NCBI GenBank assembly: GCA_937934135.1
Contig: CALHAW010000022.1
Span: 1-47,919 of the forward strand
Direction of reading: 5' to 3'
Length of the DNA: 47,919 nt
Source: an uncultured Alphaproteobacteria bacterium
GTDB taxonomy: Bacteria; Pseudomonadota; Alphaproteobacteria; Micavibrionales; Micavibrionaceae
The notes beneath the pieces are model-generated. The model saw only the letters and a program-made list of their open reading frames with translations, had not been told where the DNA came from and did not search any database. Of the stretch, positions 26,399 to 30,219 are shown in pieces (position 1 is the stretch's first letter; every line of letters starts with the position of its first letter). Position numbers and translations under genes: made by a program.

Positions 26399-27022
26399 TT
26401 ATTTCTTATCTACGGACGAGCGTTCAACACGATTTTGAATAACTTCTTTAGGCAGTAAAATATCTTGTAATAAGCTGATTAATTTATCTTCAGTATCATC
26501 CATGCTTTTTAACAAAGATCGACAGGATTTTTCAGTTGTAATAGGCGTTTTTTCAATCTTACTTTCTGAAAATGCATAAGCTTTATCATTTAATGCAACC
26601 GCATATTCGTAATCTTTAACATGGAATGCATTTTGTTCTTTTAATTCATTTTTCAAAAAGCTTTCTGCATTGTTTAAAATAGGAAAGACGGCTTTTTCCC
26701 ATTCTTTCAAACGTGTATTCATTTGCATTTTAATCGATGGGTTTTCTTTACCGCATGCTTTTACCGCATTTTTAATATCACGGTGAACAATGTTAATGGC
26801 GCGTATTGTGCTGTGCTTATTTCTTAGGATAAAGAAAATTTTCTGATTTTCTTCTGGTAAGCTTTCCAACAATTTATTTTCTGCATCAATCCATTTTGTG
26901 ATGGGTGTTTCTTCTGCCTTAAAATCTTTTGCATCTTGCGCTTTTTTATCCTGCGCAAAGGCAACAGTGACAAATAAAAGAAATATACAAAATAGAGGGA
27001 TTAAAAATCGAATAATCATCAT
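26399..27022 (-). CDS. Exported alpha-helical protein of unknown function
   Basis: A 207-aa protein with a signal peptide (FLIPLFCIFLLFVTVAFAQ, cleavage about residue 23). The mature part is charged, almost entirely helical by composition, and has two Cys (C93, C167 approximately). No domain is recognised. The region before it (27075-27245, same strand) can fold into a candidate switching leader RNA ending in a terminator 67 bases before the ATG, so expression may be controlled by premature termination. It is convergent with ctaA, 12 bases apart. Confidence 0.7.
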   Translation of the reverse strand: MMIIRFLIPLFCIFLLFVTVAFAQDKKAQDAKDFKAEETPITKWIDAENKLLESLPEENQKIFFILRNKHSTIRAINIVHRDIKNAVKACGKENPSIKMQMNTRLKEWEKAVFPILNNAESFLKNELKEQNAFHVKDYEYAVALNDKAYAFSESKIEKTPITTEKSCRSLLKSMDDTEDKLISLLQDILLPKEVIQNRVERSSVDKK

Positions 27023-27074: not shown

Positions 27075-27117
27075 AAACAAAGAAAAGACCGCCGAAAGCA
27101 GGGATGCTTCACGGCGG
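27075..27117 (-). terminator. Terminator-like hairpin in the leader of the 26399-27022 gene
   Basis: On the minus strand an outer CCGCCG/CGGCGG stem (27117-27112 with 27094-27089) and an inner AAGCA/TGCTT type stem around a four-base loop, followed by a T-rich tail interrupted by a few C and G (27088-27074). It is a moderate terminator. Confidence 0.55.
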
Positions 27118-27245
27118 CCAAAGGGACGAAAATTACACATAACACCCAGGGCCGACCGGCGAGTGAGATTTGCGGGGCATTGCAAACCGGTCGAGGTAAT
27201 ATGCGTATTACAAAGGGAGAAGCTACAGAAAATACAGCCCTGATT
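27089..27245 (-). promoter_or_regulatory. Candidate structured RNA: riboswitch-like leader or small RNA
   Basis: GC-rich island in AT-rich sequence between rne and the 26399-27022 gene. On the minus strand a closing stem (27242-27237 with 27152-27147, six pairs) encloses two hairpins: 27211-27206/27201-27196 with a four-base loop, and 27192-27187/27159-27154 extended by 27186-27182/27173-27169. The terminator-like hairpin follows. Segment 27158-27150 can instead pair with 27119-27112, the 5' arm of that hairpin, with one bulge, which would be an antiterminator. A possible promoter lies just upstream. I do not recognise a known RNA family. Confidence 0.45.
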
Positions 27246-27250
27246 TAAGG

Positions 27251-27277
27251 ACTATATTATTTAAATATTAAAATCAA
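27251..27277 (-). promoter_or_regulatory. Possible promoter of the structured RNA
   Basis: -35 TTGATT at 27277-27272, 15-base spacer, -10 TATAGT at 27256-27251 on the minus strand. The start would be near 27244, directly at the closing stem of the RNA. The spacer is short and the region is AT-rich. Confidence 0.4.
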
Positions 27278-27330
27278 AAACATCCCCTATGCATATTATT
27301 ATGTTAAGTCATGAGAGGTTAACAGCGTGT

Positions 27331-27357
27331 AAAAAATAGATAAAATTTTATCTATTT
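27331..27357 (-). terminator. Possible rne terminator: 24-base AT palindrome
   Basis: A perfect palindrome with 12-base arms (27334-27345 and 27346-27357), centred on AAAATTTT, begins 12 bases after the rne stop. On the minus strand it runs into six T. The stem is almost all A-T, so it is weaker than a usual terminator; it could also be a protein-binding site. Confidence 0.5.
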
Positions 27358-27368
27358 CCTTATATGAC

Positions 27369-29849
27369 TTAATCAATCAAACGATTCCACCAGCCTTTTT
27401 TCTTATCTGTTGGCGCTTCATTTACGACCTCATACTCTTTCGCATGTGTCTCTTGGGCGGGTGCCGCGCGCTTTTTGTCATCATTTGAAGCAGAAGGTTT
27501 GGCTTCGGCGGTTTTCTTTTTCGTTTTTGAAGAAGATTTTTTCGCCGATTTAGAAGACTTCTTTTTCTCTTCTTTTTTCTGGGGCGCGGCGCTTTTTTCT
27601 TCGGCGCGTGCCGCTATAACACCATCCTTATCAGGTGCGCTCTTTACTGCATCATCGCTATTTACAGGATTTTGATCCGCTCCGTCTTCGGACTTATTTT
27701 TGTTATGACGGCGTCCACCACGACGGCCACGACGACGTGATTTTTTAGGCTTGTCTTCATCATTTTTCTGATGATGTGAAGATTGTTCGTCTGAACCCTC
27801 TTCAATAACCGCTCCATCACGTTTTTTGAGAACCTTCACATTAAATTCAGATGGCTTTAAACCATCATCCGTACGCACATGAACGCGCACATCATAAAGA
27901 ATTTCGATATCGGCCAACATTTGGCGCTTATGATTTAAAATATAAACCGCAACACTATTTGGTAGATTCAAATTCATCTCAGCTGTCTTACCTTTAATGC
28001 TTTCTTCTACAATCGCACGAAGTGCGGTAATCGCGGCAAAGTCTAATGTCTTAGTTGATCCCGTTCCATCACAATGCGAACAAGTTTCAAATTGCGCTTC
28101 TGTTAAACTGGGGTTTAATCGTTGACGGGATAATTCAAGCAAGCCGAATGATGAGATACGACCTACTTGGATACGCGCCCGATCATCTGACAGCGCATCA
28201 CGTAAGCGATTTTCAACCTTGCGGTTATTACGGCGTTCTTCCATATCAATAAAATCAATAACAACTAAACCACCCAGATCACGCAAACGGAGTTGACGCG
28301 CCACTTCCGAAGCAGCTTCGAGATTCGTTTTTAATGCTGTTGCTTCAATATGGCGTTCTTTTGTTGCACGGCCAGAGTTCACATCAACGGCAACCAATGC
28401 TTCCGTGGGGTTAATAACAAGCGAACCACCAGATTTTAATGTGACGCTAATGTTACCAATTTCACTAATTTGTTGTTCCACTTTATATTTGTGGAATAAT
28501 GGCAGGCGCTCTTCTTTATATTCTTGCACTTTTTTGGCATGGGACGGCACCAGCATCTTCATAAATTCTTTTGCCGTTTTAAACCCTTTACCACCCGCAA
28601 CCAAAACTTCTTCAATATCACGTGTATAAAGGTCACGGATAGAACGCTTAATCAGGTTTCCTTCTTCATTAATCAAAGAAGGAGCGGTTGATTTTAATGT
28701 ATCTTCACGAATTGTATTCCAAAGACGTACTAAATAATCAAGATCACGTTTAATTTCTGCTTTTGTACGCGATACACCCGCCGTTCTTAAAATCACAGAC
28801 ATGCCCTCTGGGATCGTCAATTCTTTTAGAATTTCACGCATCCGTTTGCGGTCTTTGAAATTACCAATTTTACGACTGACGCCGCCGCCGCGGGGGCTGT
28901 TTGGCATTAACACACAATATCTTCCCGGTAAGGAAAGATAGCTTGTGACCGCCGCGCCTTTATTGCCACGCTCTTCTTTAGAGACTTGGATCAACATGAC
29001 TTGACCGCGTTTAATCACTTCTTGGATTTTATATTTATGACGCAGGCTTTTTTTGAAAGATTGTTCACCATCTTCATCAACCAATTCATCATTTTTATTG
29101 CGCAATGCAGAACGTTTTTTTCCATGACGTCCACGGCGATTATTATTGCGTCCGCGCCCACGGCGATTATTTTTCTTCTCGCCTTCATTATCACCGTCAG
29201 ATTCAGTATCGCTCTCGCTTGAAGTGTCCTCTTGCGCCGCAATGTCATCTTGGTCAGTTGATACAGCTTCGGCTTCGGTTTCATCCGCTTCGGCGTTTTT
29301 CTGTTCTTCTTTTTTAGACGGTTTCTTTTTAGATTTTCTTGATTTCTTTTTATCTTTGGCCAGTAAATCAGCATCATCTTCATCCGCCGGTTTATCTGCG
29401 CCACCAACTTCGACAACCGCCTCAACGCCGTCTTCATCTTCTTCGGTGATATCTTCTATTTCTTCGATATCTGCATCAACACTATCATCTGCATCATCTT
29501 CTAAATCATCTTCAGACTCTTCTGCTATTTCATCTTCATCATCCTGGTTATTACGGTCAAAGGCCGCTTTATGTTCGGCCAATAAGGCTTCACGGTCACT
29601 CACAGGAATGCGGAAATAATCAGGGTGAATTTCAGAAAAAGGCAAAAACCCATGACGGTTACCGCCATAATTCACAAAAGCGGCCTGTAAGGATGGTTCA
29701 ACCCGCGTTACTTTGGCAAGGTACACCCCACCTTTAATTTGTTTTCTAACCATACTTTCATAATCAAATTCTTCCAGTCGGCCATTTTCAACGATAGCAA
29801 CACGTGTTTCTTCTTTGTGCGTTGCATCAATCAACATTTTTTTTGTCAT
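27369..29849 (-). CDS. rne: Ribonuclease E/G
   Basis: An 826-aa endoribonuclease for mRNA decay and rRNA/tRNA processing. The start MTKKMLIDATHKEETRVAIVENGRLEEFDYES is typical; a GGAG motif fixes it at 29849, although the frame is open 43 codons further. The S1 domain is interrupted (about residues 85-255) by an acidic stretch followed by Lys/Arg-rich and RRGRGRNNNRRGRHGKK segments, as in other alphaproteobacteria. The catalytic site has AVDVNSGR and VVIDFIDM, and the zinc link is CSHCDGTG. The C-terminal 170 residues are a disordered, charged scaffold with RRGRRGGRR. Confidence 0.96.
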   Translation of the reverse strand: MTKKMLIDATHKEETRVAIVENGRLEEFDYESMVRKQIKGGVYLAKVTRVEPSLQAAFVNYGGNRHGFLPFSEIHPDYFRIPVSDREALLAEHKAAFDRNNQDDEDEIAEESEDDLEDDADDSVDADIEEIEDITEEDEDGVEAVVEVGGADKPADEDDADLLAKDKKKSRKSKKKPSKKEEQKNAEADETEAEAVSTDQDDIAAQEDTSSESDTESDGDNEGEKKNNRRGRGRNNNRRGRHGKKRSALRNKNDELVDEDGEQSFKKSLRHKYKIQEVIKRGQVMLIQVSKEERGNKGAAVTSYLSLPGRYCVLMPNSPRGGGVSRKIGNFKDRKRMREILKELTIPEGMSVILRTAGVSRTKAEIKRDLDYLVRLWNTIREDTLKSTAPSLINEEGNLIKRSIRDLYTRDIEEVLVAGGKGFKTAKEFMKMLVPSHAKKVQEYKEERLPLFHKYKVEQQISEIGNISVTLKSGGSLVINPTEALVAVDVNSGRATKERHIEATALKTNLEAASEVARQLRLRDLGGLVVIDFIDMEERRNNRKVENRLRDALSDDRARIQVGRISSFGLLELSRQRLNPSLTEAQFETCSHCDGTGSTKTLDFAAITALRAIVEESIKGKTAEMNLNLPNSVAVYILNHKRQMLADIEILYDVRVHVRTDDGLKPSEFNVKVLKKRDGAVIEEGSDEQSSHHQKNDEDKPKKSRRRGRRGGRRHNKNKSEDGADQNPVNSDDAVKSAPDKDGVIAARAEEKSAAPQKKEEKKKSSKSAKKSSSKTKKKTAEAKPSASNDDKKRAAPAQETHAKEYEVVNEAPTDKKKGWWNRLID

Positions 29850-30219
29850 ATTATTTCTCCATATGCGGCGAAAGCAGATCCATTTCGCGCGACAGGGGAA
29901 ATGGTTTGCGCCTTCACGCATGATTTTAAGTCTTCTTCTTCGGATGTCGTGGGGAGAGCCATTCGCTAGCCTCGCCAAAATCTAATGAGGGATTCTATTC
30001 ATCCTCTCTTTAGCGCCGAAAAAGAGAAAATTATTCTCAATTCTTACCGTCATAGCTAGCGAAACTTATAAAAAACGTAATTAAATCAAATAATTATGCT
30101 AAAGCCACAACGGGTCGCAAGATGACAATACACCCGCCCCCCTTTTCACGCAAGCTGTAAAATAAGGCTTTAAAATCAGGTCATGACTTTTCCTTTTTTT
30201 GTCTGTATTTTAATCGTTC
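29850..30219. other. rne-amiC divergent intergenic region
   Basis: 370 bases between the divergent rne and amiC starts. It should hold both promoters and a long rne leader; a small imperfect hairpin (GAGGGAT/ATCCTC) lies near 29983-30003. A TTTAAT at 30209-30214, five bases before the amiC ATG, may be a -10 box, but no good -35 accompanies it. I see no gene in it. In E. coli rne is autoregulated through its leader; whether that holds here cannot be judged. Confidence 0.4.

Follow-up and report, generated by a model that had tools for sequence, protein, structure and literature searches.

A candidate small RNA gene with a conserved C-rich loop in the Micavibrionaceae

The window analysed here is a stretch of 47,919 nucleotides from an uncultured alphaproteobacterium of the family Micavibrionaceae. 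On its minus strand, the gene rne (RNase E/G; 27369-29978), identified by Pfam (RNase_E_G) and NCBIfam matches, is followed by a gene for a putative exported protein (26399-27022), which has no Pfam match above the cut-off and no NCBIfam match. Between them lies a GC-rich island, and the question is what this island encodes. A preliminary description, made from the letters of this one sequence, took it for a riboswitch-like leader of the exported-protein gene, with a choice between a terminator and an antiterminator. As a separate observation, the protein encoded by rne finishes in a K-rich stretch that contains GWW (KKGWWNRL-like; 27369-27420, minus strand); many relatives have this too, and it looks like a conserved C-terminal motif.

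Fold of the minus strand

The segment 27075-27277 does have a higher GC content than its flanks, and its minus strand does have the character of a structured RNA, as had been described. These 203 nt fold at -64.3 kcal/mol with a z score of -5.55, and none of 200 shuffled sequences was as stable; in the same shuffle test, the plus strand gave a z score of -2.28.

The minimum-energy fold of the window consists of a 5' hairpin (27258-27231), a long hairpin, and a terminator (27119/27087). The long hairpin (27134-27207, minus strand) has pairs running from 27207/27134 up to 27182/27173, and is supported by the fold and by covariation on 19 and 50 sequences, as detailed below. At its apex is the motif UGCCCCGCA (27171-27179, minus strand), which we propose as a pairing seed on the basis of its conservation and its unpaired probability. 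After the hairpin comes a C-rich linker, GUCCCUUU (27120-27127, minus strand), directly 5' of the intrinsic terminator (27079-27119, minus strand), which is made up of the hairpin 27119-27087 and a U tract and is supported by fold and covariation. The terminator pairs have probabilities of 0.97-1.0 in the window fold, and the terminator-like hairpin described ahead of the exported-protein gene is confirmed as a strong hairpin with a U tract. The predicted small RNA (sRNA) transcript is about 210 nt long (27079-27290, minus strand), its end being set by the U tract and its start by the promoter block described below.

The 5' hairpin (27231-27258, minus strand) is a feature of the fold of the window's predicted transcript; no conserved counterpart was seen in relatives, whose 5' domains differ in length and stability. 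A search of 15 loci for a stable 5' domain shared by the relatives found none (z scores from -2.74 to 1.58). A family-wide closing helix between the 5' end of the transcript and the linker was also rejected, with a mean z score of -0.31 over 15 loci and p < 0.05 only in locus L075 and in the window. In the window's full predicted transcript the linker pairs with the 5' end.

The arrangement first proposed was a closing stem around two hairpins, whereas the minimum-energy and comparative structures both have one long hairpin, 27207-27134, in its place. The closing stem, as far as it can be identified from the preliminary description (27242-27237 with 27152-27147), has a probability of 0.0 and would cost 10.8-11.5 kcal/mol. 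The two segments said to form the antiterminator, 27158-27150 and 27119-27112, are indeed complementary, but their pairing likewise has a probability of 0.0, at a cost of 14-17 kcal/mol. Nor is it conserved: full pairing was seen in one of 19 sequences, namely the window itself, and 43.8% of cells were paired, compared to 44.7% after shuffling. Because the antiterminator is improbable in the fold and is not conserved, the switch is not supported. When the proposed terminator/antiterminator pair was tested, two mutually exclusive conserved folds were not found, and a riboswitch with such a choice was rejected on both conservation and energy.

Covariation and distribution of the family

A DNA search of 38 genomes gave matches in only two, of which one is the genome of the window itself. 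This suggested that the letters of the RNA are not conserved, although its shape may be, and a covariance model was therefore built. The flanking genes are more widespread, rne being found in all 38 genomes and a homologue of the downstream protein in 24 (the window's genome is counted in both); the exported protein proved too variable for an alignment-based query. Inspection by eye of the sequence 3' of rne or 5' of the downstream gene revealed a common pattern in many relatives, namely a hairpin with a UGCCCC loop, then UCCCUU, then a GC-rich terminator. Plain MAFFT alignments left the long stem unaligned, and this was solved by a seed model made from two sequences. This model, R1, combined the sequences of G001 and G008, two relatives that resemble each other, with a manually assigned structure.

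At E <= 1e-4, R1 found 11 further loci, including the window, in a set of 20 sources. The window scored 34.5 bits (E about 2.5e-6 to 2.6e-6) over 27206-27079, and the 6S RNA locus in the same set (L061) gave no match. Across 104 Micavibrionaceae genomes, R1 matched in 12. The R1 matches were added and 19 sequences aligned to the model (alignment A7). In this alignment 94.6% of cells pair, and both partners have changed in 28 of the 32 pairs. Such counts are biased toward the model, since the alignments are fitted to its structure, but R1 drew on two sequences only. The covariation score is 0.708; shuffles give 0.230 (sd 0.018), and sliding the partners gives no more than 0.147. The terminator has changes on both sides in 8 of its 10 pairs.

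A second covariance model, R2, was built on these 19 rows, and its 50 matches form alignment A9, which is subject to the same bias and which gave 89.5% of cells paired, 31 of 32 pairs with changes on both sides, and a covariation score of 0.691, compared to 0.215 in shuffles and at most 0.142 with partners slid. This alignment and the counts of gene context at 49 loci given below retain three weak and probably false loci that have no CCCC loop (L108, L109 and L111), leave out the R2 matches in G046, G083, G088, G096 and G103 and the second match in G090, and use the first copy in G023. All five helices, including the terminator, contain pairs with double changes. Double changes throughout the five helices are strong evidence, from sequence comparison, that the RNA is folded and under selection. 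The compensatory changes that had been named as a check on the preliminary description are abundant in the long hairpin and the terminator.

At E <= 0.05, R2 found the RNA in 52 of 104 Micavibrionaceae genomes, including all 10 of the window's genus; the window's own genome has a single match. In a search of the order at E <= 0.01, matches occurred in 46 of 142 genomes, 45 of them Micavibrionaceae, and the only one outside the family (G032) is weak and lacks the CCCC loop. A draw of 385 genomes from the class gave matches in 10, three in Micavibrionaceae and seven outside, compared to about four that chance would give at the cut-off of E <= 0.01. The best of the class matches outside the family (L114) has no CCCC loop and stands after an unrelated open reading frame (ORF), and was not accepted as a homologue. 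Large searches apply stricter filters, so that absence of a match in them is not proof of absence of the RNA. The Micavibrionaceae include a predator of bacteria, Micavibrio aeruginosavorus, and the genome matching its cultured strain ARL-13 (G057) carries the RNA at E 3.5e-5 (G057:C1:383740-383868), which makes the RNA experimentally testable; RNA-Seq data for ARL-13 are described in PMC3189940.

Three loci, L017, L018 and L021 (in G010, G020 and G016), have a shorter variant 5' of the exported-protein gene, with conserved 5' letters of its own. By eye, the hairpin with a UUGCCCC loop in these variants runs directly into a T run, and the C-rich hairpin seems to be the terminator itself. Against R2, L018 scored 30.7 bits, and L017 and L021 gave no match.

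The preliminary description knew of no named RNA family that fits, and the database searches agree. Rfam 15 gave no match at gathering level anywhere in the window, chance-level matches only around the segment at E <= 10, and a single match, to a tRNA, in 20 related loci. Phage records produced one match of 26 bases (E 0.6). None of the three papers in the library searched that mention both Micavibrio and small RNA seems, by its title, to describe such an RNA, no report of it appeared among the matches listed for M. aeruginosavorus and transcriptome or for Micavibrionaceae, and the words 'sRNA' and 'riboswitch' are absent from the main text of PMC3189940. In kind the RNA is ordinary, a trans-type sRNA; as a family it is new and absent from Rfam.

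Two well-known RNAs were considered and rejected. The 6S RNA model RF00013 did not match in the segment, and 6S RNA sits elsewhere in the genome (G000:C3:74141-74304). The bacterial small SRP RNA model RF00169 did not match there either, and a separate SRP RNA locus was found in 8 of 11 genomes searched. Since both have loci of their own, the RNA is neither. RF00169 was not found in the window's genome (G000), perhaps because of an assembly gap, the genome being 97% complete.

Putative promoter, gene context and proposed function

Sixteen of 49 loci have a TTAA-N-TTTAACATAA-like block 5' of the hairpin, compared to 1.0 expected, in a post hoc count whose pattern was drawn after viewing sequences of the genus and which skips L109 with its short upstream flank. 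One of the 16, L105, has its match far upstream, where it looked unrelated, and was excluded from the analysis of the promoter. Upstream of the block is a TAGATAAAATT box; in 10 of the remaining 15 loci its best match begins 55 nt ahead of the end of the block, two of these having 8 of the 11 letters. The best box match in L064 and L077 is at 43 nt and is a second tandem copy, L064 also having a copy at 55; L071 and L072 have weaker matches at other places (6 and 9 of 11 letters). The distance from block to hairpin, by comparison, ranges from 45 to 158 nt. A fixed inner spacing with a free outer spacing is what a promoter would show, and the block found in the nearer relatives is probably a promoter.

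In the window, the box is at 27344-27354 (minus strand), recognised by its conserved spacing, and the putative promoter block, TTAA-N11-CTTAACATAA, is at 27299-27322 (minus strand), recognised by its conservation; the distance from box to block end is 56 nt. A scan with a promoter consensus reads the block as TTAACC-16-AATAAT. From these positions, transcription probably starts near 27290 rather than near 27244. The earlier suggestion that the RNA has its own promoter is therefore probably correct, but its position directly before the closing stem is not, since no conservation was seen there by eye and the conserved elements lie at 27354-27299.

A TTAA-N11-TTTAACATAA block is also present about 330-360 nt 5' of an ORF that we take to be mraZ-like, in L154 (G005) and L160 (G008). 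The gene mraZ is the head of the division gene cluster. A block common to the RNA and to mraZ-like genes could possibly mean that they share cell-cycle or growth control.

The RNA is intergenic, its structure is conserved, it ends in an intrinsic terminator, and a putative promoter of its own is present in 16 of 49 loci, all of which are expected of an sRNA gene. An alternative is a cis-acting 5' leader, whose terminator would attenuate transcription of the exported-protein gene, read-through being altered by a ligand, a protein or another RNA that binds the hairpin. The genome context goes some way to meet this: 43 of 49 loci have the exported-protein gene 3' of the RNA in the same orientation, and the first in-frame ATG usually lies no more than about 150 nt from the model match. 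Riboswitches and attenuators would be expected to keep a constant gene association, and six loci depart from it. Three of these are weak matches without a CCCC loop (L108, L109 and L111; 28.8-31.4 bits), but three are strong, namely L078 (G003, 71 bits), L072 (G116, 66.5 bits) and L085 (G052, 55.2 bits). In G003 and G116 the exported protein is encoded on a different contig from the RNA, and in G052 a search for its gene gave no match; in G116 the next ORF after the RNA is on the opposite strand and is presumably mnmA. The RNA thus outlives its link to the exported-protein gene, and because that gene is elsewhere or not found in these genomes, control of the gene at 26399-27022, as originally supposed, is unlikely to be its main role. 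The lack of conservation and zero probability of the proposed antiterminator also count against a leader. In addition, 12 of 50 loci have a -10-like TANNNT 16-18 nt after a hexamer whose first two letters are the final T's of the U tract, compared to 4.07 in shuffled sequences (p 0.001, with offsets picked after viewing the loci), which hints at a separate promoter for the exported-protein gene, although a plain promoter consensus scores hardly above shuffles in this position (6.72 compared to 6.29, 36 loci). Overall, a cis-acting leader is improbable.

Still less probable is that the RNA is no more than the 3' end of the rne transcript, with the terminator serving rne and the hairpin being a processed 3'-UTR fragment. 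Of 49 loci, 28 have an rne-like C-terminus 5' of the RNA (in two of them at least 0.7 kb away), and a scan of the window showed no further terminator on the minus strand in the interval from rne to the RNA. No rne C-terminus was found upstream in the other 21 loci, though some of their flanks are short, and in G001, G017, G018 and G023 rne appears by eye to have its own terminator 5' of the RNA. The promoter-like block that separates the RNA from rne, with its fixed inner spacing, also speaks against this reading, and termination does not need a long hairpin with a constant loop. It could also be argued that the loop binds a protein, making the RNA a sponge or a structural RNA that does not pair with mRNA, and a loop so strongly conserved, on a stem that covaries, would fit a protein site equally. 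We know of no candidate protein, the separate 6S and SRP RNA loci speak against the familiar examples, and we regard this explanation as unlikely.

We conclude that the RNA is very probably a gene of its own, a view which is well supported. The fuller proposal, that it is a free-standing sRNA gene of Micavibrionaceae whose C-rich loop pairs with other mRNAs, is the one we favour, and is rather probable. It would be transcribed from about 27290 to 27079, ending at the intrinsic terminator. The C-rich loop, and perhaps also the linker, would then pair with G-rich sites of other mRNAs, for example in ribosome-binding regions, and the pairing would alter the translation or stability of those mRNAs.

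The loop has properties consistent with this. CCCC is present in the apical region of 47 of 50 matches, and CCCCGC in 34 of 50, compared to 1.1 expected. Over 47 loci the median probability that the apical CCCC is unpaired is 0.81, and GCCCCGCA is proposed as the candidate seed of the RNA. The C-rich linker pattern is found 5' of the terminator in 33 of 50 matches. In the core fold this linker is largely single-stranded (median unpaired probability 0.99, 36 loci), but longer predicted transcripts often have it paired; the value for the window is 0.03. In the window's genome, the seed complement followed by a start codon, TGCGGGGC-N-ATG, has 25 matches, compared to 7 in the reversed control, an excess that is not specific to genomes with the RNA, since two genomes outside the family gave 11 compared to 2 and 52 compared to 14.

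If the proposal is true, the Micavibrionaceae have a regulatory RNA that is conserved and of defined structure, and whose seed can be tested. A much bolder version, which we consider improbable, would have the RNA as a family-wide global regulator, timed by the growth cycle through the promoter element common with mraZ in two relatives, and helping to set the switch between free-swimming attack and prey-attached growth in predators. For the locus itself, the switch read from a single sequence dissolves when relatives are compared, and a real RNA gene emerges instead.

Comparison with known regulatory RNAs

In its layout, a structured RNA and then an intrinsic terminator ahead of a gene, the RNA resembles terminator-type riboswitches and attenuators. 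It differs from them in that the alternative pairing proposed for it is not conserved, and in that the usual downstream gene is missing next to three strong copies. The sRNAs SisA-D (alpha-R8) of Caulobacter repress mRNAs, probably via a motif of anti-Shine-Dalgarno type (PMC12559287). The likeness is to the action proposed for the RNA here, and SisA-D are four siblings, whereas the window's genome has one match.

GsrN, a general stress sRNA of Caulobacter that is restricted to one family, has a C-rich loop that is its most conserved part and that pairs with G-rich mRNA sites, as shown for katG (PMC5869019). Like GsrN, the RNA described here is alphaproteobacterial, limited to one family, and most conserved in its C-rich loop. 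The GsrN loop is in the 5' part of the molecule, and GsrN is under the control of the stress sigma factor EcfG, whereas the present loop tops the long middle hairpin. The EcfG-type promoter motif is GGAAC-N-CGTT; this motif has four matches in the window, none of them near the RNA.

The CCUCCUCCC-loop sRNAs of Rhizobiales, SmelA075 and SmelA099, have constant C-rich loops on stems of variable sequence (PMC3927594). The RNA here has the same combination, but those sRNAs have three or four hairpins carrying CCUCCUCCC, compared to the one hairpin that carries UGCCCCGCA here. Given a constant C-rich loop on variable stems, as in GsrN and the CCUCCUCCC sRNAs, we infer pairing with G-rich mRNA sites, and by this analogy base pairing through the C-rich loop is likely.
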